A stretch of 64,000 nt of DNA from Winogradskya humida (GTDB lineage Bacteria; Actinomycetota; Actinomycetes; Mycobacteriales; Micromonosporaceae). The notes under the pieces are model-generated. The model was not told where the DNA came from. It saw only the letters and a list, made by a program, of their open reading frames with translations, and ran no database searches. The stretch spans positions 1 through 64,000 of the forward strand of contig NZ_BOMN01000142.1 in the NCBI RefSeq assembly GCF_016862215.1, written 5' to 3'. Below, in pieces: positions 21,602 to 43,062 of this stretch. The translations under genes were made by a program, and so were the position numbers. Numbering within the stretch: the stretch's first letter is position 1; each line of letters begins with the position of its first letter.

Positions 21602-21696
21602 CGGCGCAACCGGGGTACGCCACGTCTCGGGCCGCCCGGCTGGCGACCGGCGCTACGACATCGGATGTCGCGCTCAGAAAAGCGCCGGGGTTGCCG
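21602..21696 (+). promoter_or_regulatory. Structured leader RNA upstream of the GGDEF-EAL gene
   Basis: The leader can fold into a three-way junction. P1 pairs CGGCGCAACC (21602-21611, with a two-base bulge) with GGTTGCCG (21689-21696). P2 pairs GGTACGCC (21614-21621, bulged A) with GGCGACC (21642-21648). P3 pairs CCGGCGCT (21647-21654) with AGCGCCGG (21681-21688), so P2 and P3 compete for two bases. The 3' strand of P1 overlaps the TTG at 21691 and lies 12 bases before the likely GTG start, so folding could control translation. A c-di-GMP riboswitch is an attractive idea, but the canonical GEMM core is not clearly present. Confidence 0.4.
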
Positions 21697-21708
21697 AACG
21701 GGAACGCT

Positions 21709-23982
21709 GTGACCGGTGCGACCAGGGTGGGGCGGCGGCGAGACCTAAGGGTGTCCTGGATCGCCGTCGCCCTGACGGCGATCGTCGTGGCAGCACAGAT
21801 CGTCGCGCTGCTGGTCGACGGGGCGAGGTTGGCGATCACGTCCTACTCGCTTACGGTGCTCGACGTGCTGGGCCTGGTCTACAGCCTGCGGGCAACCCGG
21901 CGGGGTATGAACCGGTTCACCTGGCAGTCGCTGAGTACGGCCCGGGTGATGTCGATGGTGTCGACGGCGTGCCTGATCACCGCGCTGCACTCCAGCCAGG
22001 CCCGGTGGTGGTGGATCGGGGTGATAACCGGGCTGATCACGTACGTGTGCCTGGCGCTGGCCGCGGTGGCAGTTCCCGCCCAGCGGCTGCAAGGATCGCA
22101 GTGGGCCGCGTTCGCCGCCGAGGTACTCACCGTCACGGGCTGCGGGTTCATGTTCATCTGGCATTTTGTGCTGTCCCCGATCGTCGAGTCCGGCACCCGG
22201 GGTCATCTGCTCGTCCTCGCCCTCGGGTTCCCGCTGGGTGACCTGCTGCTACTGGTAGCGGTCACCGCGTTCCTGCTGCGCAGCGGGTTCCTGTCCATCT
22301 CGCGGCCGGTGGTCCTGCTCGTGGCCGGCATCGGGCTGTATCTCGTGGCCGACCTGCTGCTCGATGGTGTCGGCAACGACGGCGTCCGCAGCATGGGTTC
22401 ACGACCAGCAACGGTGAGCATGGTCGCGGCCTCACTGCTGCTGACCCTCGCCGCGCGATGGCAGGCCAGCACCCCCACGACCACCACGACCACTGCGGGA
22501 GCGAGTCCGGTGCCGCCGGTCTGGGCCACCTACTTCCCGTACGCCGCCACCGCAGCCGGTTTCACGTTGATGATCGTTGTCACTGTGCTCGACAACGCCC
22601 TGATGTCCTGGGGTGGCCTGGTCCTCGGCATGATCGTCATGACCGGTGCCGTCGTCGCCCGCCAGTTGCTGTCCCTGCGCGCTAGTCGCAGCCAGACCGT
22701 GACCGACATGCTGACCGGGCTCGCGAACCGCACCGGCCTGCACCACGCCCTGGACCGTGCCGTACGCCGCCAGGCCCCGGTCGCGCTTTTCGCCATCCAC
22801 CTCGACGGCTTCGACCAGATCAACACCCTGCACGGCCGCAGCGTCGGCAAAGCCCTGCTGACCGAGTTCGCTCACCTGCTGCGCTCCACCACCCGCAGCA
22901 CCGACATCGCCGCCCGCGCCGGCGGCGACGAGTTCACCCTGCTCGCCCACGACATCCGCACACCCGGCGAAGCGACCGCCGTGGCCCACCGCCTGCTCAC
23001 CACCGTCACAGCCTCCCCCGTGACGATCGGCGAGCTCACCCTTACCCTGCAGCTCAGCATCGGTATTAGCCTCACACAGCCCGACACCAGCGTGGAAGAA
23101 CTCACCCAGCGGGCCGCCGTCGCCCTGTACCAGGCCGAACGAGCCGGCAAACACAGCTATGCCCTGTACGACCCGTCGATGATCGACCGCCGCACCGAGG
23201 ACGCCCTGCTCGCCCGCGACCTCGACCACGCCGTCCCCGACGGCCAGCTACTGGTCCTGTACCAGCCCATGGTCGACCTTGCCACCGGCCAGCCGCGCGG
23301 TGTCGAGGCCCTGGTCCGCTGGCAGCACCCGCACCGCGGCCTCATCTCCCCGCTGGACTTCATCCCGATCGCCGAACGCACCGGCGCCATCACCATCATC
23401 GGCCTGCACGTCCTGGAGCAGGCCTGTCACCAGATCCAGGACTGGCGCCGGCAACTACCCGCCGACCGGCCGTTCTACGTCAGTGTCAACGTCTCACCCC
23501 GGCAACTACAGGAACCCACCCTGGTCGACGACATCCTCGCCGTCCTGGCCCGCACCGGCATGAAACCCGCAGATCTGGTCCTCGAAGTCACCGAATCCGC
23601 CGTCGTCGACGAACAGATCGCCATCCCAGCCCTGCGCACCCTGCGCGAACACGGCATCCGCGTCGCCATCGACGACTTCGGCACCGGCTACTCGTCACTG
23701 CACTACCTGACCCGGCTACCCGTCGACATCCTCAAAATCGACCGCAGCTTCGTCAACGAGCTCAACGGCACCGCCGAAGGCGCCGCCGTCGCCCAGGCCA
23801 TCATCCATCTCAGCAAGGCCCTGCATCTGAGCACCGTCGCCGAGGGCATCGAAACCACCAGGCAGGCCACCGAGTTGCAACACCTGGGCTGCGACATCGG
23901 CCAGGGCTACCTGTACGCCCGGCCACTGGTCCCGGACGACGTCACCGCCATGCTGCTGCACCACGTTGAGCAGCAGGCGTAA
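21709..23982 (+). CDS. Membrane GGDEF-EAL c-di-GMP cyclase/phosphodiesterase
   Basis: This protein makes and/or degrades c-di-GMP. An N-terminal block of about eight hydrophobic helices (first ~330 residues) is followed by a GGDEF domain with intact AGGDEF and an RSTD inhibitory site five residues before it, then an EAL domain with EALVRW, DDFGTGYSS and KIDRSFV all intact. Both activities are therefore possible; the GGDEF half may be a regulatory GTP sensor. Starts at 21691 (TTG) and 21709 (GTG) are both plausible; I prefer 21709. A foldable leader precedes it. It is followed 47 bases later by another GGDEF gene, probably cotranscribed. Confidence 0.92.
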   Translation: MTGATRVGRRRDLRVSWIAVALTAIVVAAQIVALLVDGARLAITSYSLTVLDVLGLVYSLRATRRGMNRFTWQSLSTARVMSMVSTACLITALHSSQARWWWIGVITGLITYVCLALAAVAVPAQRLQGSQWAAFAAEVLTVTGCGFMFIWHFVLSPIVESGTRGHLLVLALGFPLGDLLLLVAVTAFLLRSGFLSISRPVVLLVAGIGLYLVADLLLDGVGNDGVRSMGSRPATVSMVAASLLLTLAARWQASTPTTTTTTAGASPVPPVWATYFPYAATAAGFTLMIVVTVLDNALMSWGGLVLGMIVMTGAVVARQLLSLRASRSQTVTDMLTGLANRTGLHHALDRAVRRQAPVALFAIHLDGFDQINTLHGRSVGKALLTEFAHLLRSTTRSTDIAARAGGDEFTLLAHDIRTPGEATAVAHRLLTTVTASPVTIGELTLTLQLSIGISLTQPDTSVEELTQRAAVALYQAERAGKHSYALYDPSMIDRRTEDALLARDLDHAVPDGQLLVLYQPMVDLATGQPRGVEALVRWQHPHRGLISPLDFIPIAERTGAITIIGLHVLEQACHQIQDWRRQLPADRPFYVSVNVSPRQLQEPTLVDDILAVLARTGMKPADLVLEVTESAVVDEQIAIPALRTLREHGIRVAIDDFGTGYSSLHYLTRLPVDILKIDRSFVNELNGTAEGAAVAQAIIHLSKALHLSTVAEGIETTRQATELQHLGCDIGQGYLYARPLVPDDVTAMLLHHVEQQA

Positions 23983-24038
23983 GTCGCGTTCCCGCTGTTT
24001 CGTCCGGCCGTGGTGCCGAACAAGAAGGGGTGAGCATC

Positions 24039-25649
24039 GTGCAGAACCGGTCACCGCGGCGCCGCCTGACCTCTCTGGTAGCGGTGGTACTGGTGCTGGC
24101 GGCGGGATGCGCGGTGACAGTGGCGGCGTACGTGGCGGTCCGCGACGGTGAGACCCGCTATGCGGGACAGGTGATGGACCGCTACATCGACGACATCACC
24201 GAGACCGTCGCGGATCGGGTCGCCAGGTACGGCTCCACCCTGTCCGACCTCGCCTACGCCATCGGCGCCCAGACAGACCTGGAAGCCGATGACTTCACCC
24301 GCATCAGTACCGGCCTGGACGCCACCCGGCTACCCGGCGCCAGCGGTATCGGCTTCGTCGTCACCGCATCCACCACCCAGATACCGTCCGTGCAACGCAC
24401 CTGGCGTACGCACGGAGCGCCCGGCCTGACCCTGAAACCCGCAGCCGGCATCTCGGCCCATAATTTCGTCATCTTCGAGAAGGCGTTCGACGACCGTGAG
24501 GACATGCAGGGCACCGACCTGAGCATCAGCGCTCCTCTGGCCTCCGCGCTGGACACCGCCCGCCACAGCGGCACCCTCGCCATCAGCCCGGCCTACCAGC
24601 TCCTGCGCGACCGGTGGATGACACCCGAGCAACGGCAGACCTCCGTAGTTCTGGCTGCCCCGGTTTACACCGGGCTCGGGTCGTCCGCCCCGGACGAGTT
24701 CATCGGCTGGGTCGTCATGGGCCTGCGCGGGCAGGACTTCCTGGGCCAGACATTGCTCGGCCGCAGCCAGAAAGTCGTCCAGATCAGCATCACGGACACC
24801 ACCGCAGGTGACGCCCTGATCGCCGCCATCGCACCCGGGCGCCGGGTGAGCACCGCGAACCTGGAACGCCAGCAGAGTACCGCTGTCGCTCAGCGACGCT
24901 GGCACGTCACGGTATGGCCGACCACCCGGCTGCTCGCCAGCACCGACCGCGGCATGAGCCGGCTCACCCTGGCCGCCGGCATAGCCCTGTCAGTCCTGCT
25001 GGCCATGCTGGCCGGGGTCCTCACCGGCAGCCGCAACCGCGCCCTGGAACAGGTCGAGCGGGCCACCACCGAACTACGCCGCGACATCGACCGCCGCGAA
25101 CAGGTCGAAGCCCGCCTACACGAACGCGAGCAACAGTTGCAGCAACTCGCGTTCCATGACCCCCTCACCGGCCTGGCGAACCGGCTGCTGTTCTACGACC
25201 GCCTCACCCACGCCCTGGCCACCCACGCCCGCGGCAACCGCGTCTTCGCCGTGCTGTTCATCGACCTCGACGGCTTCAAACAAGTCAACGACCAACGCGG
25301 CCACAACGCCGGCGACACCGTCCTGCAAGTCGTCGCCGACCGCCTGCGCACCGGGCTACGCGCCAGCGACACCGTCGCACGCTTCGGCGGCGACGAATTC
25401 GCCATCATCATCGAAAGCCTCACCGGCATCGCCGACGCCCGCCCCACCGCCGAACGCATCATCGGCGTCGTCCAGGAACCCATCGACATCGACGGCACCC
25501 CCGCCCAGGTATCCGCCAGCGTCGGCATCGCCGTCAACCACCCCGGCGTCAGCGCCGACGACCTGATCCGGGAAGCCGACGCCGCCATGTACACGGCGAA
25601 GACCAGCGGCAAGAACCGCTACGCCGAAGCCGGCACCGCACCCCACTGA
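24039..25649 (+). CDS. CHASE-domain diguanylate cyclase
   Basis: This enzyme makes c-di-GMP in response to an extracellular cue. TM1 (about 10-32 from the start), an extracytoplasmic CHASE domain (about 40-300, with VIFEKAFDDREDMQGTDL typical of CHASE), TM2 (LAAGIALSVLLAMLAG), a short coiled coil and a GGDEF domain with FGGDEF plus the RASD inhibitory site. It starts DPLTGLANRLLFYDRL, a canonical GGDEF entry. GTG at 24039 is 8 bases after AAGAAGGGG; an in-frame GTG at 24030 overlaps that site and is less likely. It lacks an EAL domain. Confidence 0.92.
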   Translation: MQNRSPRRRLTSLVAVVLVLAAGCAVTVAAYVAVRDGETRYAGQVMDRYIDDITETVADRVARYGSTLSDLAYAIGAQTDLEADDFTRISTGLDATRLPGASGIGFVVTASTTQIPSVQRTWRTHGAPGLTLKPAAGISAHNFVIFEKAFDDREDMQGTDLSISAPLASALDTARHSGTLAISPAYQLLRDRWMTPEQRQTSVVLAAPVYTGLGSSAPDEFIGWVVMGLRGQDFLGQTLLGRSQKVVQISITDTTAGDALIAAIAPGRRVSTANLERQQSTAVAQRRWHVTVWPTTRLLASTDRGMSRLTLAAGIALSVLLAMLAGVLTGSRNRALEQVERATTELRRDIDRREQVEARLHEREQQLQQLAFHDPLTGLANRLLFYDRLTHALATHARGNRVFAVLFIDLDGFKQVNDQRGHNAGDTVLQVVADRLRTGLRASDTVARFGGDEFAIIIESLTGIADARPTAERIIGVVQEPIDIDGTPAQVSASVGIAVNHPGVSADDLIREADAAMYTAKTSGKNRYAEAGTAPH

Positions 25650-29741: not shown

Positions 29742-30314
29742 CTAGATGCCTGCCGTAGCGATATTCACATCGGGTATTCGAGTTGCCCTGCGGGTGAGTG
29801 CGACGATCTGGTATCCGCTGTGTTCGCGTTCGCGGACGACGTGCCAGCCTTGGACGTCGCGGTAGTAGCGGACGAGGTCGGGTACGAAGGTGCCTCGGCG
29901 TACCCATGTCCTGCCGGTTCGTGCTGCGTGGTCGAGTACCCACCAGGCCAGCCGGCAGCCCAGCTGCTGTCGGGCGAATCGGGGGTCGGTGACGGTTCCG
30001 GTCATGAACAGTGCGGGCTCGGCGCGTTCGGCTGCGGTCCACAGCCATTCGGGGGACTCGGTGAGCAGGGTGGTGCAGCCGATGACTTCGTCGCCGCCGG
30101 TGAGTACCCATACGGGTATGTCGGGGTGCGCGGCTTGACCGGCGAGGTCGTCAGCCACCTCTTCCCAGTCAGGTTGATCATGTTCTCGCATCCATACGGA
30201 GCGAGCGCGGATCAGAGCTGCGATCGCTGGCACGTCATCGCGCCCGGCGGGTCGCATCAAGAGTGGAGGCGCAGGCTGTTTCACCTGGGAATTCGTTGCG
30301 GTTAGGTCAGCCAC
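29742..30314 (-). CDS. GNAT-family N-acetyltransferase
   Basis: The protein (190 residues) shows the GNAT core: MRPAGRDDVPAIAALIRARS at the start, a central acetyl-CoA binding segment ARQQLGCRLAWWVLDHAA (Q/RxxGxG/A-like, slightly degenerate) and a C-terminal YYRDVQGWHVVR strand. Acceptor unknown. It lies 10 bases after the stop of the asparagine-synthetase-like gene, so it is the third gene of the peptide-ligase-acetyltransferase operon, which suggests that it acetylates the peptide product or the immunity target. GTG start at 30314. Confidence 0.82.
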   Translation of the reverse strand: MADLTATNSQVKQPAPPLLMRPAGRDDVPAIAALIRARSVWMREHDQPDWEEVADDLAGQAAHPDIPVWVLTGGDEVIGCTTLLTESPEWLWTAAERAEPALFMTGTVTDPRFARQQLGCRLAWWVLDHAARTGRTWVRRGTFVPDLVRYYRDVQGWHVVREREHSGYQIVALTRRATRIPDVNIATAGI

Positions 30315-30324
30315 TCAATCCACC

Positions 30325-31884
30325 TTAGACCGGGGCCGCCGTGCTGGCAGCTACCGTCGCGGGTGATCTCGCATGGCCGTAGCTGCGCAGGGTGGCCTCG
30401 AGGGACGAGACCCGGCAGATCTCGTGGTCATCGGGTACTGCGGTGCCGGCGTCGATGCCGGCCATGGTGGTGGCGAGCCCGTCGGGGTCGAGGTATCCGT
30501 CTGCGATGAGCGGGGATCCCTCGTCCAGGATTTCCCGTAGGTAGGCCACTCCGTAGCGCCGCAGGCCGAGCCCCATGACCTGTTCGAAGTTTTCTCGCAG
30601 GGGCGGGTCGGTCAGGTACGGGTCGCAGCCGAGTGAGGCGAGACGTGCCCTGTGCAATTGTTTGCGGTGCCGCCACTGGTAGGGCAGCCAGTCCCCGAAT
30701 CGGATCAGCGTCGGGTCGGCCAGCGGGTGTATCGGCCACATCCCTGCTCGCAGCAGTGGTGGGGCGACGCAGGCCATCGCCATCAGGGTCATCTCGTTGA
30801 CCACGGACGCGGATGCGATGGCCGTGTCGGTGTCGTCGAGCAGGTGCAGGGTGCGCGGGCCGAACCAGGTCGCAGCGGGGGTGTCCATGCCGAGGGCGGG
30901 CCGGGACAGTTCGTCGAGGGTGAGCGCGACCATCTCGTCGCCGCCGATCCCGGTGACGACCGTGCGGATGCCGCGCTCGCCCAGGAGAGCGACCAGGCTG
31001 CTCTTGCCCTCGTCGTAGAGTTCGTCGTACGGGGTGATCAGGGCACGGGAGGCGCGCCGGCCGCCGGGCCGCAACGGCAGGTTGTCGATCATGCGGGTGG
31101 TGACGTTCTCGCCGAGGCCGAACAGGTTGATCATGCGTCGGCGCCGGTCCTGCTGCTGCTCGCCGGCGTCACCGACGATCAGCATCGCGGCTGCCGTGAT
31201 CTGACCTGGGTGGCGGGCGCCGAGGGTGGCAGCGACGTTCGCCGAGTCCAGGCCGCCGGACAACTCGACCGCGGTGGTGGCCGGATCGTAGGCGTGCCGG
31301 TCGAGGACCTCGTCGAGTAGCCGCTGGTAGGCGGCTACCGGGTCGGCGTCGGGGTGCAGCTGTCGGGGGCGGCCGTGTGCGGCGGCCAGCGGGTAACACA
31401 GCCGCAGTCCGTGCCGGCTGTACACCGCCCGGGACCGCTCGGTCAGCCAGTTCAGGCCCTCCCACAGGGTCTCGTGGGTGTAGCGGAATCGGCCGGTCAG
31501 CTGCCGGACGAGCTCACGTTCCTGCAACGGCGCCTCACGGACCTGGTCGGCCAGGTCGGCGACGTCCCACGAGCCGTGCAGCACGTTGCCGTGTTCGATC
31601 AGGTAGATCGGGGCGATCCCGTGGGTGCCGGCTTCGAGCCACATGCTGTCGCCGGCGAACTGCACCACGACGAAGTCTCCGGCCCATTGCGGATGGTGTG
31701 GTTGTGCATCCCGGCCGGGGATCCGTTCCCGGACGACCATTGCTGGACTGTCGGGGGTCTGATCGAGCACCTCGAGGGCAGGATGGTCGTAAGGCTCGAT
31801 CCATGACGCGCCGCTCTGCCATTGGCGGCCGGTCCATGTCCACCGGCCGGGGACGTCCTTGGCACGGATGTGCAGCTTCAACAT
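30325..31884 (-). CDS. Asparagine-synthetase-like ATP-dependent amide ligase (candidate peptide cyclase)
   Basis: This 519-residue protein has the asparagine synthase ATP-pyrophosphatase core: VELSGGLDSANVA with the SGGLDS loop at 209-214, VVTGIGGDEM near 316-325 and a later catalytic helix region. The N-terminal glutaminase-like half begins MLKLHIRAKD and lacks the Cys2 nucleophile, so it cannot use glutamine. That combination is typical of lasso-peptide cyclases and beta-lactam synthetases, which activate a side-chain carboxylate by adenylation and close an amide. A 52-residue peptide gene lies 83 bases upstream. ATG at 31884. Confidence 0.85.
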   Translation of the reverse strand: MLKLHIRAKDVPGRWTWTGRQWQSGASWIEPYDHPALEVLDQTPDSPAMVVRERIPGRDAQPHHPQWAGDFVVVQFAGDSMWLEAGTHGIAPIYLIEHGNVLHGSWDVADLADQVREAPLQERELVRQLTGRFRYTHETLWEGLNWLTERSRAVYSRHGLRLCYPLAAAHGRPRQLHPDADPVAAYQRLLDEVLDRHAYDPATTAVELSGGLDSANVAATLGARHPGQITAAAMLIVGDAGEQQQDRRRRMINLFGLGENVTTRMIDNLPLRPGGRRASRALITPYDELYDEGKSSLVALLGERGIRTVVTGIGGDEMVALTLDELSRPALGMDTPAATWFGPRTLHLLDDTDTAIASASVVNEMTLMAMACVAPPLLRAGMWPIHPLADPTLIRFGDWLPYQWRHRKQLHRARLASLGCDPYLTDPPLRENFEQVMGLGLRRYGVAYLREILDEGSPLIADGYLDPDGLATTMAGIDAGTAVPDDHEICRVSSLEATLRSYGHARSPATVAASTAAPV

Positions 31885-31923
31885 CGATTACTCCCGGCGG
31901 ATTCGTTGAAGAGACAAAGGCGG

Positions 31924-31959
31924 GGCCGGGGACGCCCTCGACAACGGACGCCCCCGGCC
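31924..31959 (-). terminator. Hairpin between peptide gene and ligase gene
   Basis: GGCCGGGG (31924-31931) pairs with CCCCGGCC (31952-31959), extended inward to about 14 bp with two wobble pairs and an 8-base loop. It lies 8 bases after the peptide stop. In peptide operons a partial terminator here raises precursor over enzyme; that role is inferred. Confidence 0.6.
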
Positions 31960-31967
31960 GGCGTGGA

Positions 31968-32126
31968 TCAGGTGATGATCTCGTCCCGCTGGTTGGCGGT
32001 GTCGGAACTGCCCGACTTCTTCTTGTAGCCACTGCGTTCCGCCGCCGATGGAATCTCCAGCGTCTCCGGGCTGGCGAACAGCGGGGCGGGCTGCTGCGAC
32101 AGGTCGTGCTCGATGTCGTCGGTCAT
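31968..32126 (-). CDS. Candidate RiPP precursor peptide (52 aa)
   Basis: ATG at 32126 is preceded by AAGGAG with 6-base spacing. The peptide starts MTDDIEHDLSQQPAPLFASP, continues ETLEIPSAAERSGYKKKSG and ends SSDTANQRDEIIT. It is acidic at the front, with a proline-spaced middle and a polar, basic-then-acidic tail, as in leader-core precursors. The ligase 83 bases downstream could join a Lys or the core N-terminus to an Asp or Glu of the tail. It lacks the lasso leader pattern (Tyr-x2-Pro-x-Leu...Thr at -2), and no lasso B1/B2 genes are present. It is too short for automatic calling. Confidence 0.65.
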   Translation of the reverse strand: MTDDIEHDLSQQPAPLFASPETLEIPSAAERSGYKKKSGSSDTANQRDEIIT

Positions 32127-32371
32127 GGCCTTCTCCTTCGGTTCGAATGTCTACCAAGCGGCTCCGCGGGCCGATTCCCACTAAAGCCCTGCGATGCAGA
32201 GGAGGCCATGTCATGTGGTCGGTGTCTGTTTGTCACCGGTTGTCCATGACCATCTCGGCAGCCCGGCGCTACCCCAGGTGTAGCCCCCGCGTGGCCGAGC
32301 GCCTCGAACGCCGTCGACGACCGGTGATTCAGCGACTACTCTTTGCTTTCGCTGAGGAGGGGGAGGAAGCT
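32127..32371. promoter_or_regulatory. Divergent promoter region of the peptide locus
   Basis: These 245 bases separate the leftward peptide gene from the rightward XRE regulator, so both promoters, and probably the regulator's operator, lie here. I cannot point to a specific operator by eye. Confidence 0.45.
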
Positions 32372-33193
32372 GTGGCTCCCAGCCGGAGACTCCTGGTGTC
32401 ACCACTTCGTATGGCCCGGCGGACTATCCCCGCCACCCTCGAAGCTGTATGCGCCGACCTGGACCACGCCGCACTCACCGGTTCCAGCGGAGTCACCCCG
32501 GCCATGCTCTCCGGCTGGGAACTCGGCCGGCACGTCACCAGCATCAAATACCGCAAGATGCTCAGCGACTACTACGGCCGACCTATCGACGATCTGTTCA
32601 GCCACCAGGACCACGCGCTGACCTCGGTCGCAGAAACACCTCGGCTCCTGGCCGGTCCACGGCAACTGTGGAACGCCATGATCGACGTCGTCGAGTCCGC
32701 TCAAGTCTGCCTGGCCGTCGTCGGCTCCCGCTCCCGGCACAACGACTACCTCACAAAAATTGAGAAGTCGCTCGCCGGTAACCCCGAGCTGGTGCATTAC
32801 CGCATCCTGTTCGGCCCGCCCCGCAACCAAATCCTCAAGGACCACCTGCTGCGACTCACCCAGATCCGCGACCCGGCCGACCGCAGCACCGGCATCCAAA
32901 CCCTGCACATCGGCATCATCGACGACCCCGCCGTCCCGGAACGGTTCTACTGCGCCGGCGACACCGGCGCGGTCACCCCGATCCCCTCGTTGACGTCATC
33001 GGAAGCCTTCGACTCCGGCGTATTGTTCGAGTCCGAGGTTTCCGCCCGCCTGGTAGACCACACCCGGCAGCTGTACGCCGCCGCCCGCAAGATCGAAGAT
33101 CCCCATCAGCTGGCCGAGTTGCCGGTGCTGCGCCATCACGGCCGGGCCCGGCTTGACCCAGAAGGGACCCGCCCGTGGCCACCGCGGAGATAG
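32372..33193 (+). CDS. XRE-type helix-turn-helix regulator with large C-terminal domain
   Basis: The N-terminal domain contains LEAVCADLDHAALTG and SSGVTPAMLSGWELGRHVTS, the XRE helix-turn-helix with recognition helix SGVTPAMLSGWE, then YRKMLSDYYGRPIDDLF. The C-terminal ~180 residues (ESAQVCLAVVGSRSRHNDYL, VHYRILFGPPRNQILKDHLL) form an alpha/beta domain common in actinobacterial XRE proteins. GTG at 32372 is chosen because GGGAGGAA lies 6 bases upstream; the frame stays open to 32048, but that would overlap the divergent peptide gene. It overlaps the M20 gene by 19 bases and likely regulates the divergent peptide operon. Confidence 0.8.
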   Translation: MAPSRRLLVSPLRMARRTIPATLEAVCADLDHAALTGSSGVTPAMLSGWELGRHVTSIKYRKMLSDYYGRPIDDLFSHQDHALTSVAETPRLLAGPRQLWNAMIDVVESAQVCLAVVGSRSRHNDYLTKIEKSLAGNPELVHYRILFGPPRNQILKDHLLRLTQIRDPADRSTGIQTLHIGIIDDPAVPERFYCAGDTGAVTPIPSLTSSEAFDSGVLFESEVSARLVDHTRQLYAAARKIEDPHQLAELPVLRHHGRARLDPEGTRPWPPRR

Positions 33194-34389
33194 GCAACCG
33201 GTCCGCTGTTCTCGCCGCCGCCCGTCACGATGCCGCAGGGGTACTCGAGCTCACTCGTGGACTCGTGGCCGTGCCCAGTCGCGGCGGCATCGACGACTAC
33301 GGCCCGATTGTGGACCTGCTGACCGGGTGGCTACGGTCGCGCCAACTCGACCCGCGTGTGCTGTATGCCGACGACGGCACCGCGATCGCCGTGGTCTGCG
33401 AGATCACCGGCGAGCACCCCGGCCCGCGTCTCGTCCTCGACGCCTGCCTCGACACCGCCCCGTTCGGCGACCTCACCGCCTGGACCCATCCGCCCACTAC
33501 TCCCGTCGAACATGACGGATGGCTCTACGGCCGCGGCACCGCCGACTCCAAAGTCGCCGTCGCGACCTTCTGCCACCTCGTAGCCCAGATAGCCGCCACC
33601 CAGCGTCACCTGATCCATGGCCGTCTGGTGCTTCTTTTCGACCTGGACGAGCACACCGGAACGTTCGGCGGAGCGAAGAGCTACTTCGAGGGCTCGGACG
33701 CCCCCACCGATGTAGCCGGCGTGATGATCGGTTACCCAGGCGTTACGAAACTCGTCGTCGGCGGGCGCGGTGTCCACCGTGTCCAGCTATACGTGCACGG
33801 CGTGAGCTCTCACTCCGGCGGCCGTCACCGCACCCCGAACGCCATCGCCAAGGCCGCCCAACTCGTCCAGGCACTGACCGGCGAACGACTCGAGGGAACC
33901 GACGAGCGTTTCCCGATGGGACCCGCCATCACGGTCACCGCTATCGACGGAGGACAGGGCTACTCCGTCACCCCCGACCTGTGCACCGTCAACGTCGACA
34001 TCCGCACCACCGGCACCTTCAGCGACCACGACGCCCGCCAGCTGCTCAAACGGGTCATCGCCGGCATCGATGGAGACTGGCCGGCCACCCGGGCCACCAC
34101 CATCAACACCGTGACCAGCTGGCCGCCGTACGCCCTGCCCGACAATCACCCGCTGCCCACAGCCCTGCTTAGCGCCACCTCCGACCTCGGCCTGACCGTG
34201 CAAACCAAGGTCGCCGGACCATCCAACATCGGCTGCTACCTCGCAGGACACGGCGTACCAGCCACCGCCGGCTTCGGCGTCAACTACACCGGCCTGCACA
34301 GCACCGACGAACGCATCGAAATCGCCGGAATCCCCCTGGTACAAGCCGCCTACCACACCGCCGTCCTCACATTCCTAACCTCCACGTAG
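33175..34389 (+). CDS. M20-family peptidase with substituted metal ligands
   Basis: M20 enzymes are two-metal amidohydrolases. The fold is clear: LVLDACLDTAPFGD, LYGRGTADSKVA, LLFDLDEHTGTFGGAK and the late GLHSTDERIEI. Compared with the family, the first ligand His (normally GHxD) is Cys and the second of the Glu-Glu pair is His (DEH for DEE), while both Asp, the catalytic Glu and the late His remain. The enzyme may therefore bind a different metal or act as a binding protein. GTG at 33175 inside the end of the XRE gene indicates cotranscription. A role in leader removal or product turnover is speculation. Confidence 0.82.
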   Translation: MATAEIGNRSAVLAAARHDAAGVLELTRGLVAVPSRGGIDDYGPIVDLLTGWLRSRQLDPRVLYADDGTAIAVVCEITGEHPGPRLVLDACLDTAPFGDLTAWTHPPTTPVEHDGWLYGRGTADSKVAVATFCHLVAQIAATQRHLIHGRLVLLFDLDEHTGTFGGAKSYFEGSDAPTDVAGVMIGYPGVTKLVVGGRGVHRVQLYVHGVSSHSGGRHRTPNAIAKAAQLVQALTGERLEGTDERFPMGPAITVTAIDGGQGYSVTPDLCTVNVDIRTTGTFSDHDARQLLKRVIAGIDGDWPATRATTINTVTSWPPYALPDNHPLPTALLSATSDLGLTVQTKVAGPSNIGCYLAGHGVPATAGFGVNYTGLHSTDERIEIAGIPLVQAAYHTAVLTFLTST

Positions 34390-34643: not shown

Positions 34644-35360
34644 ATGATTGTATGGGTAGCGTCGTTTCCTCGTTCCGGTAACACCTTTCTGCGGATCGTT
34701 CTTCACCGGCTGTATGGCGTCAGAACCTCGACTGTCTATGACGTCGACGGTGTTGCTGAGCGTCTCGGGAAGGATCTGATCGGGTTCACTGATCGCCCGG
34801 GAAGCCTTCCTGAAATGCGTGCCGCCGACGAGCCGCACTTCGTCAAGACCCACCGGCTGCGGGATGTCGAGGTCGACGAGGAAGATCGTGCGATATGCCT
34901 GGTGCGAGACGGCCGCGACGCTCTGGTCTCGTGGGCTCGCCAAGCGAGCGAGGAAGACCCGAACACCTATGAGGACGAACTACGGTCAAAGATCCGGCGA
35001 GTGAGTACGGGCGGGACCGGCAGTTGGGGAACCAACGTTCTCAGCTGGCTACGGCCGTCGGTGCCGCATCGTGTCGTCCTGCGATACGAGGACCTGATCC
35101 GGGACCCGCATGCGACGGTAACTCCGATCATCGCCACGGTGGCCCCCGCGCTTGGTCTGCGGCCGGAGGCTGCCATTCCCTCTCTCGACGAGCTACGAGG
35201 GCACGACGACCTGTTCTTCCGCCGAGGTCGTACCGGCAGCCATCAGGACGAAATGCGCACCGAGTTGCACCAGCTCTTCTGGTCGCGGATCGACAACCAG
35301 GCGGCGATGGCCCTACTCGGGTACCCCAAGCCCCACGATGATCAAGTCCCGCAATCCTGA
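34644..35360 (+). CDS. PAPS-dependent sulfotransferase family protein
   Basis: The N-terminus carries the 5'-phosphosulfate loop (WVASFPRSGNTFLRIVLHRL) and a 3'-phosphate binding segment (ICLVRDGRDALVSWARQ), so this should transfer sulfate from PAPS to an alcohol or amine. At 238 residues it is the short form seen in actinobacterial natural-product and glycolipid loci. It lies 254 bases after the M20 gene in the same direction; membership in the peptide locus is possible but unproven. ATG at 34644. The preceding 34390-34643 shows only ambiguous protein-like sequence. Confidence 0.85.
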   Translation: MIVWVASFPRSGNTFLRIVLHRLYGVRTSTVYDVDGVAERLGKDLIGFTDRPGSLPEMRAADEPHFVKTHRLRDVEVDEEDRAICLVRDGRDALVSWARQASEEDPNTYEDELRSKIRRVSTGGTGSWGTNVLSWLRPSVPHRVVLRYEDLIRDPHATVTPIIATVAPALGLRPEAAIPSLDELRGHDDLFFRRGRTGSHQDEMRTELHQLFWSRIDNQAAMALLGYPKPHDDQVPQS

Positions 35361-39360: not shown

Positions 39361-40243
39361 GAGGGTTATTCAGCAGGGCTTTGATAATCCACAGTAGAAC
39401 CCAATGAAAAAGACGGTCCGCTCATCAGTAGGATGGAGTTACCACACAACACCCAAAGAAGAGCGAACCGTCGAAGATGTATCATACCACCGGCTTCTCC
39501 AAGGACCAGATCCTGGATCTTTGCAGCCGCGCCCATTCCCACACCGCAGATATGCAGAAGCCGCCATGGCCACCAGTCCTTGACCTCTACCGCGCTGTCG
39601 TCGTCACACTTACCTACCTTCGACGCAACCGCGTCCAAGCAGCACTCGCCGAAACCTACGACGTCTCGCAATCCACCATTTCACGAGCCGTCTCCGGACT
39701 CACTCCCGTTCTCAAGAACATGCTGACGGAATTTGTGCCAACAGCCGACGAACTCGACCCGCGAACCCTGTACATCGTCGACGGCAGCCTGCTGCCGTGC
39801 TGGTCATGGGCCGGACACCGGGAGCTGTACTCCGGCAAGCACAAGACCACGGGCCTCAACGTCCAGCTCGCCTGCCGGCTCGACGGAAGCCTCGCGGGGG
39901 TCTCAGACCCGATCAACGGATCACGCCACGACACCTTCGCCCTCAACGAGTCCAGCGCCCTGATCTCGATGAACCCGAGCCTGTGGATCGGCGACAAGGG
40001 CTACATCAGCAACGACATGCTCACCCCGATCAGAAAACCCACCCACCGAGCACTCCTGGACTGGGAGAAAGAATTCAACACACAGGTCAACAAGGTTCGT
40101 TACGTCATCGAACAGGCCATCGCCAACTTCAAGACCTGGCGAATCATGCACACCGACTACCGGCGACCCCTCAAATCGTTCCGTCAAACCATCAGTGCCG
40201 TAGTCGCTCTGCACTTTTACAAGATCGCCTGTGAATAACCCTC
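39361..40243 (+). mobile_element. Complete IS5-family insertion sequence (883 bp)
   Basis: Perfect 12-bp inverted ends, GAGGGTTATTCA (39361-39372) and TGAATAACCCTC (40232-40243), enclose one intact transposase gene. CTT directly flanks both ends (39358-39360 and 40244-40246), a 3-bp target duplication as expected for several IS5 subgroups. Intact ends, gene and duplication suggest a recent, possibly active copy. Confidence 0.9.
39477..40238 (+). CDS. IS5-family (DDE_Tnp_4) transposase
   Basis: The 253-residue protein has an N-terminal helix-turn-helix (VQAALAETYDVSQSTISRAV) and the Harbinger/IS5-type catalytic core: TLYIVDGSLLPCWSW (first Asp), LWIGDKGYISNDM (second Asp) and an invariant-like VIEQAIANFKTWRIM (Glu). 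The reading frame is uninterrupted and ends 6 bases inside the right inverted end. ATG at 39477. Confidence 0.92.
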   Translation: MYHTTGFSKDQILDLCSRAHSHTADMQKPPWPPVLDLYRAVVVTLTYLRRNRVQAALAETYDVSQSTISRAVSGLTPVLKNMLTEFVPTADELDPRTLYIVDGSLLPCWSWAGHRELYSGKHKTTGLNVQLACRLDGSLAGVSDPINGSRHDTFALNESSALISMNPSLWIGDKGYISNDMLTPIRKPTHRALLDWEKEFNTQVNKVRYVIEQAIANFKTWRIMHTDYRRPLKSFRQTISAVVALHFYKIACE

Positions 40244-41888: not shown

Positions 41889-43062
41889 CAGAGGTTGAAA
41901 GGCTGACGGTCGTCGGCGTGTCTACGTGACCTACGTCGATGGATTCGGTAGGCCAGAGGTATGAGGTATCCGGCTGGTGGTGGCATGAACGCGGCAGCCC
42001 GGATCCGGCGTGAGAAGGTCAGGATCCAGGCCGCGACCATGTTCGAGGCATTGGAAACGACCGCGCAGATTGCATCTGAGCTGCGGGTTTCTGAGAAGTC
42101 TGTCCGTGAGTGGCGGCGTCGGTGGGCTGCTGGCGGAGCCCAGGCCCTAGCGTCGTCCGGGCCGGGCGGTTCGGACTGCAAACTCTCCGATGACCAGCTC
42201 AAACAGCTTGCCGAGGTGCTCGATGAAGGACCCGTCGCGCAGGGCTGGGTCGACGCACGCTGGACCCTCGCTCGGGTCGCCGAGGTGACCGAACGCTGCT
42301 TCGGCGTCTCGTACACGCTGCGCGGAGTGTCGTATCTGCTGCACCGCATCGGTTACAGCCAACAGGTCCCGACCCGTCGGGCGATCGAACGCGATCCCGA
42401 GGCGATCGCTTCCTGGCACCGTCGGCGGTGGCCGTCGGTAAGAGGTTAGCCGCAGCCCAGGGTGCGTGGATCTGCTTCCAGGACGAGGCCGGTCAGGTCC
42501 TGCGCCCGCCGGTGAGCAAGACCTGGGCCCGCCGTGGCCGCACGCCGGTGATCTCGGTGTCGGGTAAAGGCTCCGGCCGGATCTCGATCGCCGGCCTGGT
42601 CTGTCTCAAGCCCGGTGAACGCGGCCGGCTGATGTGGCGCACCCGCTTGCACCGCGGCCGCAAAGACGAACGCGGTAGCTTCAGCGAGGACGACTACATC
42701 GCTTTACTCGACCAGGCCCACCAACGTTTGCAGGCGCCGATCGTGCTGATCTGGGACAACCTCAACACCCACGTCAGCCGCCGTATGCAGGCGCTGATCG
42801 CCGCCCGGTGCTGGCTGACGGTGATCCGGCTTCCCGCTTACGCCCCGGACCTCAACCCGACCGAGGGCGTCTGGTCCTGGATGAAACGCGGCCTGACGAA
42901 CATCGCCGCCCGCGGCATCGACCACCTCGCCGACCTGGTCAGACGCCGGTTACGCGCCTGCCAGCAGCAGTCCGATCTCCTCGCCGGCTTCTTCGCCAGC
43001 ACCGAAATGACCCTCGACCCCGAACTACCGCAATGAGGCAGACCTCAGCCTTTCAACCTCTG
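41889..43062 (+). mobile_element. IS630-family insertion sequence (about 1.17 kb)
   Basis: A 21-base inverted repeat (41886-41906 and 43045-43065) has TA just inside each outer end, as expected for IS630 elements, which insert at TA and duplicate it. Counting from the TA, the element is 41889-43062. The ends are perfectly matched. Confidence 0.88.
41961..43036 (+). CDS. IS630-family transposase in two overlapping frames
   Basis: The first frame (41961-42449) encodes the helix-turn-helix part (TTAQIASELRVSEKSVREWR) and ends HRRRWPSVRG. The second frame (from GTG 42428 to 43036) begins VGKRLAAAQGAWICFQDEAG and carries the full DDE set: FQDEAG, VLIWDNLNTH and LNPTEGVWSWMK. Homologues read RWP-V-KRLAAAQG in one frame, so here one base is missing near 42448 or a -1 frameshift is used in translation. 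I leave open which. Confidence 0.8.

Follow-up and report, generated by a model that had tools for sequence, protein, structure and literature searches.

A conserved peptide gene beside an asparagine-synthetase-like ligase in Winogradskya humida points to a candidate RiPP family of actinomycetes

We analysed a 64,000-nucleotide stretch of the Winogradskya humida genome (contig NZ_BOMN01000142.1 of assembly GCF_016862215.1, positions 1 to 64,000; hereafter the window), which holds a candidate locus for a ribosomally synthesized and post-translationally modified peptide (RiPP). The genome comprises 11.1 Mb in 182 contigs, and the locus lies on contig C142. A 52-codon gene on the minus strand (31968-32126) encodes the putative precursor peptide of 52 residues, MTDDIEHDLSQQPAPLFASPETLEIPSAAERSGYKKKSGSSDTANQRDEIIT, and is preceded by the ribosome site GAAGGAG, with 6 bases between the end of the site and the ATG. 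Downstream of it on the same strand lies the gene of a 519-residue asparagine-synthetase-like ligase (30325-31884), the predicted amide synthetase for the peptide, and a 190-residue GNAT acetyltransferase (29742-30314, minus strand; Pfam Acetyltransf_1, 22.0 bits against a cut-off of 20.7) starts 10 bases past the ligase stop. An earlier interpretation made from the letters of the window only, here called the sequence-only reading, had proposed this arrangement, including the good ribosome site and the 10-base spacing, and we found all of its genes in the places it gave.

Homologues of the ligase occur in 5 of 200 genomes of the same family (E 1e-10) and in 13 of 394 genomes of the same class (E 1e-15), the window's own genome being counted in both samples, and a search for a second copy in that genome found none. 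Several relatives have a small open reading frame (ORF) upstream of the ligase that ends in the same C-terminal motif. A scan of a genome collection of 84,980 species, with an alignment of 11 ligases as the query, yielded 96 relatives; we retained the 80 best, which gave 78 loci, all actinobacterial. The ligase strand of 98 loci (1,307,498 bases, with the window's own locus and several near-duplicates included) was scanned with a precursor pattern, which required a Lys (Arg in one alternative) and an Asp six residues apart and an aliphatic-Phe or aliphatic-Tyr pair in the leader. Exactly one match was found in each of 77 loci, including the window's own, always upstream of the ligase, and none in the other 21.

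The ligase match begins within the first 32 residues in 69 of the 78 loci, some of which have later frame breaks (L074, for example), and past residue 60 in nine (L060, L072, L081, L087, L091, L092, L093, L094 and L096). Of the 69 start-intact loci, 68 have at least the core motif immediately before the ligase gene, 63 of them recognised by the pattern and five by eye. Specifically, L051, L025 and L084 have a peptide that falls outside the pattern, L073 retains only the peptide end, at a contig edge, and L046 has the core without an in-frame leader; in the sole remaining locus, L037, an assembly gap (Ns) occupies the precursor stretch. The precursor pattern matched two of the nine truncated-ligase loci. 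In the co-occurrence check proposed by the sequence-only reading, the peptide is present wherever the ligase start and the preceding DNA are intact, the exception being one degenerate homologue (L004), and the situation that would have told against the proposal, a ligase kept without a conserved peptide, did not arise. The 52-codon gene is real, and the locus shows the general mark of a RiPP pathway, a small, conserved precursor gene adjacent to that of a modifying enzyme.

The peptide has a leader-like segment (residues 1-33) and a conserved C-terminal segment (residues 34-52). In an alignment of 73 distinct precursors, Phe17, Lys36 (codon 32019..32021, minus strand) and Asp42 (codon 32001..32003, minus strand), the last six residues past Lys36, are invariant in all 73, an invariance that is partly by construction because the pattern used to select the set demanded the Lys/Arg-Asp spacing and the aliphatic-Phe/Tyr leader. 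The Lys, the Asp and the leader Phe are also kept in two peptides found by eye outside the pattern, L025 (YKKEPGHAD) and L084 (ARKAPGHQD), and the listing that first revealed the divergent precursor types did not require the Lys. Asp48 (codon 31983..31985, minus strand) is kept in 66 of the 73. Position 34 varies (Y in 48, T in 8, S in 1 and a gap in 16), and positions 31-33, inspected for the Thr that lasso leaders carry in the penultimate position, also vary and hold no invariant residue, Glu33 being present in 45. The leader has Leu/Val-Phe at positions 16-17 and Val/Ile followed by Pro/Gln at positions 25-26; the earlier statement that the peptide lacks a lasso leader signature holds insofar as the leader is not of the lasso type, but a leader with a pattern of its own is present. 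Purifying selection on the reading frame is strong: over 173 non-independent pairs, pN/pS is 0.090 in frame, whereas the two shifted frames give 2.86 and 4.67. Membership in a known precursor family was rejected, as NCBIfam gave no match at E 0.1 for any of the 73 precursors and the one Pfam match, DUF4621, reaches only E 0.051.

The ligase matches the Pfam family Asn_synthase at 24.8 bits (cut-off 21) and keeps the motifs SGGLDS and GIGGDE. Residue 2 is Leu, which bears out the earlier remark that the N-terminal glutaminase Cys is missing; across 47 ligases this position is L in 36, I in 6, F in 2, M in 2 and a gap in 1, and never Cys. The ATP-motif residues G211, D213, S214, G312, G315, D316 and E317 are identical in all 47 ligases, and K408 is likewise invariant. 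The AlphaFold model of the ligase, based on the 47-sequence alignment, has a pLDDT of 92.4 and predicts an asparagine-synthetase fold without the glutaminase Cys. Its best match in the PDB is beta-lactam synthetase 1mbz (Foldseek E 4.8e-16), and the nearest solved folds further include the hydroxyamidotransferase TsnB9, carbapenam synthetase (1q15) and asparagine synthetase, while by sequence alone the only clear structural relative is beta-lactam synthetase (E 7.7e-10). In a quick tree of 73 rows, from which LASSO_L139 and the loci without an ATP-loop ORF were left out, the ligase family forms one starred branch (SH-aLRT 100) apart from asparagine synthetases and from the sampled lasso cyclases, namely 12 B2-neighbouring cyclases and five hits to NF033561, all from actinomycete genomes, with long branches flagged. 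One row labelled asparagine synthetase inside the family (L118) is identical to the L038 ligase, the same genome's sequence having entered the tree twice.

In RiPP pathways, asparagine-synthetase-like enzymes have been described chiefly for lasso peptides (PMC13060819, in excerpt). The window ligase scores 27.7 bits against the lasso model NF033561, whose cut-off is 300. The window genome has no lasso B2 protease (PF13471), and neither do 13 of 29 other locus-carrying genomes; the remaining 16 encode one somewhere. The PqqD/RRE family (PF05402) has no match on the window contig, the three matches of the genome lying on contigs C88, C22 and C87, and is absent from 5 of 17 genomes (L021, L028, L050, L064 and L069), the same five also being without B2. 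The earlier claim that no RRE protein and no B protease accompany the ligase is thus upheld, on the contig for the RRE and in the genome for lasso-type B2. A canonical lasso pathway was rejected on the absence of B2 from the genome, the absence of an RRE from the contig and the position of the ligase in the tree, where its sequence places it outside the sampled lasso cyclases.

The locus is also found in Streptomyces triculaminicus (L031), and the printed core of triculamin is SKKSKPGD (PMC13192320, in excerpt). We rejected a triculamin pathway as the identity of the locus: in this genome the triculamin core shares a contig with the locus but lies about 625 kb away, next to another cyclase, and the GNAT near that core, taken here as triculamin's own, is unlike the window's (E 0.42). 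The window ligase matches the triculamin cyclase at 40 bits, over residues 194-319 (128 columns around the ATP loop). As a separate observation, the S. triculaminicus core (L174:2364-2618) immediately follows a possible start Met and precedes a long follower, possibly a leaderless lasso layout, and the adjacent cyclase, at 424 residues, is shorter than the sampled lasso cyclases.

Counted on 73 loci, with the window included and six duplicates removed (L020, L023, L057, L065, L006 and L073), the family comprises three locus types. The Lys-Lys-x-x-G-x-S-D type has 57 loci, and a homologue of the GNAT is present in 56 of them, on the same strand as the ligase in 31 and converging on it in 25 (in L069, one of the converging cases, it overlaps a long ligase frame). 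The KPQESSD type has nine loci; an ABC transporter ORF starts no more than 300 bases from the ligase end in eight of them and is present in all nine by a separate neighbour listing. In the MPGGGD type, a methyltransferase adjoins in all seven loci. No GNAT was found in the 16 loci of the KPQESSD and MPGGGD types, both of which have one Lys in the corresponding stretch. Regulators of four families are encoded within 1.5 kb in 40 of 57, nine of nine and seven of seven loci of the Lys-Lys, KPQESSD and MPGGGD types, respectively, counts taken without a background control, and a representative of them matches the NsdA family of TPR regulators (372 bits, cut-off 75). The neighbour scan covered 136 of 317 candidate neighbours (150 picked, 14 set aside), and its results refer to the 25 commonest of 91 families. 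Among these 25, M20 is the sole peptidase family; in the recurring neighbour families we noticed no gene for another amine donor and no further biosynthetic family common to all types.

On the plus strand, the window encodes an XRE-like regulator (32372-33193, with a GTG start inferred from homologues) and an M20-family, ArgE/DapE-like metallohydrolase (33175-34389; PF01546, E 9.1e-20). The helix-turn-helix match of the regulator is weak (14.5 bits, under the cut-off of 23), and the gene aligns well with homologues at five other places. An M20 gene together with the window's XRE family is found at five places besides the window (L037, L038, L044, L049 and L095; L010 is the L037 sequence, shortened), which makes six. 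Because they are limited to this small subset of loci, the M20 and XRE genes are a local variant and not core parts; the sequence-only reading, which was right about a peptide and ligase family, went too far in counting these two genes into the pathway. The M20 enzyme and its homologues have common DACLD/DACVD and DEH motifs where ArgE/DapE enzymes typically have His and Glu metal ligands, and their sequences suggest a consistent variant metal site. A sulfotransferase-like gene (34644-35360; PF00685, E 1.8e-12) lies just 3′ of the M20 gene, and its cluster is absent from the recurring neighbour families.

Elsewhere in the window, two big adjoining ORFs of 763 and 539 residues (21691-25649) resemble GGDEF/EAL cyclic-di-GMP proteins on inspection. 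ORFs at 39477-40238 and 41961-42449 resemble transposase or insertion-sequence remnants on inspection, which suggests a mobile neighbourhood. A role in anti-phage defence was rejected on the finding that PADLOC gave no match for five window proteins.

We propose, with roughly even confidence, that the locus represents a RiPP family whose ligase forms an amide bond to Asp42, the most plausible partner being Lys36, and whose GNAT acetylates a different lysine. The precursor would consist of a leader and a C-terminal part containing Lys36 and Asp42, and the ligase would bind it without a separate RRE and adenylate Asp42 using ATP. An amine within the same peptide would then attack the adenylated Asp42 to give a macrolactam, which is the simplest reaction for this fold paired with this peptide. 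That amine may be the side chain of Lys36, so that a Lys36-Asp42 isopeptide ring would form with no need for the leader to be removed first. Two points favour Lys36: all 73 precursors conserve it, whereas the would-be lasso N-terminus, position 34, varies, and a side-chain link could form before any protease has acted. M20 is the sole peptidase family among the 25 commonest neighbour families. The earlier idea that Lys and Asp/Glu residues of the peptide supply the partners of an amide fits Lys36 and Asp42. The GNAT would then probably act on one of the other lysines, acetylating Lys35 or Lys37, perhaps to protect the producer itself; control of the cluster would fall to a nearby regulator, and a protease encoded elsewhere would trim the product.

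Several observations weigh against this proposal. The catalytic Lys of asparagine synthetase and beta-lactam synthetase aligns with R430 of the ligase, a column that is Arg in 34, Pro in 9, Thr in 2, Ser in 1 and Val in 1 of the 47 ligases, so the chemistry of the ligase may differ in detail. The L004 ligase homologue, whose ATP-loop motifs are broken (SGGISS and GGNA), has no recognisable peptide and may be either defunct or repurposed. The share of the search pattern in the invariance of Phe17, Lys36 and Asp42 counts here as well. The association of the GNAT with a second Lys in the nine-residue stretch is striking as a count, with both in 55 loci, a single Lys and no GNAT in 16, and one exception in each direction (L003, with Lys-Lys-Lys and no GNAT found, and L008, with a GNAT and one Lys), but it corresponds to about three changes on the tree with no usable independent pairs. 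For this reason we rejected it as independent evidence and treat it as a lead only. Finally, no leader endoprotease is among the 25 commonest neighbour families, which renders doubtful the "small self-contained pathway" of the sequence-only reading.

A non-canonical lasso peptide, in which an unlinked protease cuts before residue 34 and the new N-terminal amine is joined to Asp42, is in our view unlikely. The spacing from 34 to 42 would give a nine-residue ring, which is a lasso-like size. Furthermore, the stretch resembles the triculamin core (PMC13192320, in excerpt), the ligase shares its enzyme superfamily with lasso cyclases (PMC13060819, in excerpt), and Lys acetylation has a lasso precedent as self-resistance for triculamin and lariocidin (PMC13352647, in excerpt), a lariocidin preprint proposing producer protection for its GNAT (PMC11451635, in excerpt). 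However, position 34 varies while Lys36 is constant, the pattern bias being kept in mind, and positions 31-33 have no invariant residue, although Glu33 is frequent. The five locus-carrying genomes with neither the B2 nor the RRE family, the place of the ligase outside the sampled lasso cyclases, its match of just 40 bits to the triculamin cyclase, and the different triculamin layout in S. triculaminicus, with the core after a possible start Met and a follower, likewise argue against a lasso product.

A reaction without cyclisation, in which the ligase couples ammonia, an amino acid or a polyamine from outside the peptide to Asp42, Asp48 or the C-terminus, would accord with the conservation of Asp48 and with other asparagine-synthetase-like RiPP enzymes, PesC, TsrC and ScdTA, which amidate or nitrilate C-termini, PesC accepting free ammonia (PMC13060819, in excerpt). 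We nevertheless judge it improbable, given that the ligases lack a glutaminase Cys (46 of 47 have L, I, F or M as residue 2 and one has a gap there), that the conservation of Lys36 would be needless, and that no donor gene stands out among the recurring neighbours. It is very unlikely that the peptide is an activator, an inhibitor or a signal and that the ligase makes a small molecule: the regulators encoded near the ligase, the NsdA-family representative among them, would suit such a role, but the C-terminal region of the peptide is strongly conserved and contains an amine/carboxylate pair, and no other biosynthetic family recurs in all types.

Extending the proposed ring closure between Lys36 and Asp42 to the whole family, we suggest more tentatively, and with confidence a little short of even, a distinct RiPP class that is widespread among actinomycetes. 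It would combine a leader-reading ligase that is free of an RRE, a Lys-Asp isopeptide ring (a graspetide-like bond made by an enzyme other than an ATP-grasp ligase), three variants that add acetylation, export or methylation, and nearby regulators that may respond to the product. The loci look like an uncharacterised route to small cyclised peptides in many soil actinomycetes, related to lasso peptides yet distinct from them. Searches of the open-access literature by peptide letters, by topic and for lasso peptides of the triculamin kind turned up no account of the peptides. About 3,800 RiPP-associated asparagine-synthetase-like candidates have been counted, some 3,500 of them lasso-related and some 300 uncharacterised, and the window family may be among the latter (PMC13060819, in excerpt). 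If the proposal is true, the family would provide a compact route to cyclic peptides that apparently dispenses with the helper proteins of lasso pathways, it would directly test the ability of the asparagine-synthetase fold to form side-chain isopeptide bonds, and its products would be candidate antibiotics or signals.

The proposed family can be set beside four kinds of known system. With graspetides, which carry omega-amide or omega-ester macrocycles, it would share the side-chain Lys-Asp amide. Graspetide ligases are ATP-grasp enzymes, whereas the window ligase has a predicted asparagine-synthetase fold and so falls outside a definition by ATP-grasp. Beta-lactam and carbapenam synthetases have the asparagine-synthetase fold without glutaminase function and are among the nearest solved folds to the ligase (1mbz and 1q15). 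The GYGAD motif of beta-lactam synthetase (1jgt), whose Tyr348 is the Tyr of the catalytic Tyr-Glu dyad, aligns with G-x-GGDE here, and x (column 313) is Tyr in only 1 of 47 ligases; in contrast to those synthetases, the window ligase probably acts on a peptide encoded next door. Lasso peptides, including albusnodin, triculamin and lariocidin, likewise have a small precursor beside an asparagine-synthetase-like cyclase, an acidic residue downstream of basic ones and, in some clusters, a GNAT, but the window locus differs in its genome without B2, its contig without an RRE and its ligase outside the sampled clade, and its peptide differs in having another leader and a conserved internal Lys. 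PesC, which forms a nitrile, and TsrC and ScdTA, which form amides, are also asparagine-synthetase-like enzymes that act on ribosomal peptides. PesC uses glutamine or ammonia on a C-terminal carboxylate (PMC13060819, in excerpt), whereas the window ligase lacks the glutaminase Cys and the peptides of the window family conserve an internal Lys/Asp pair.

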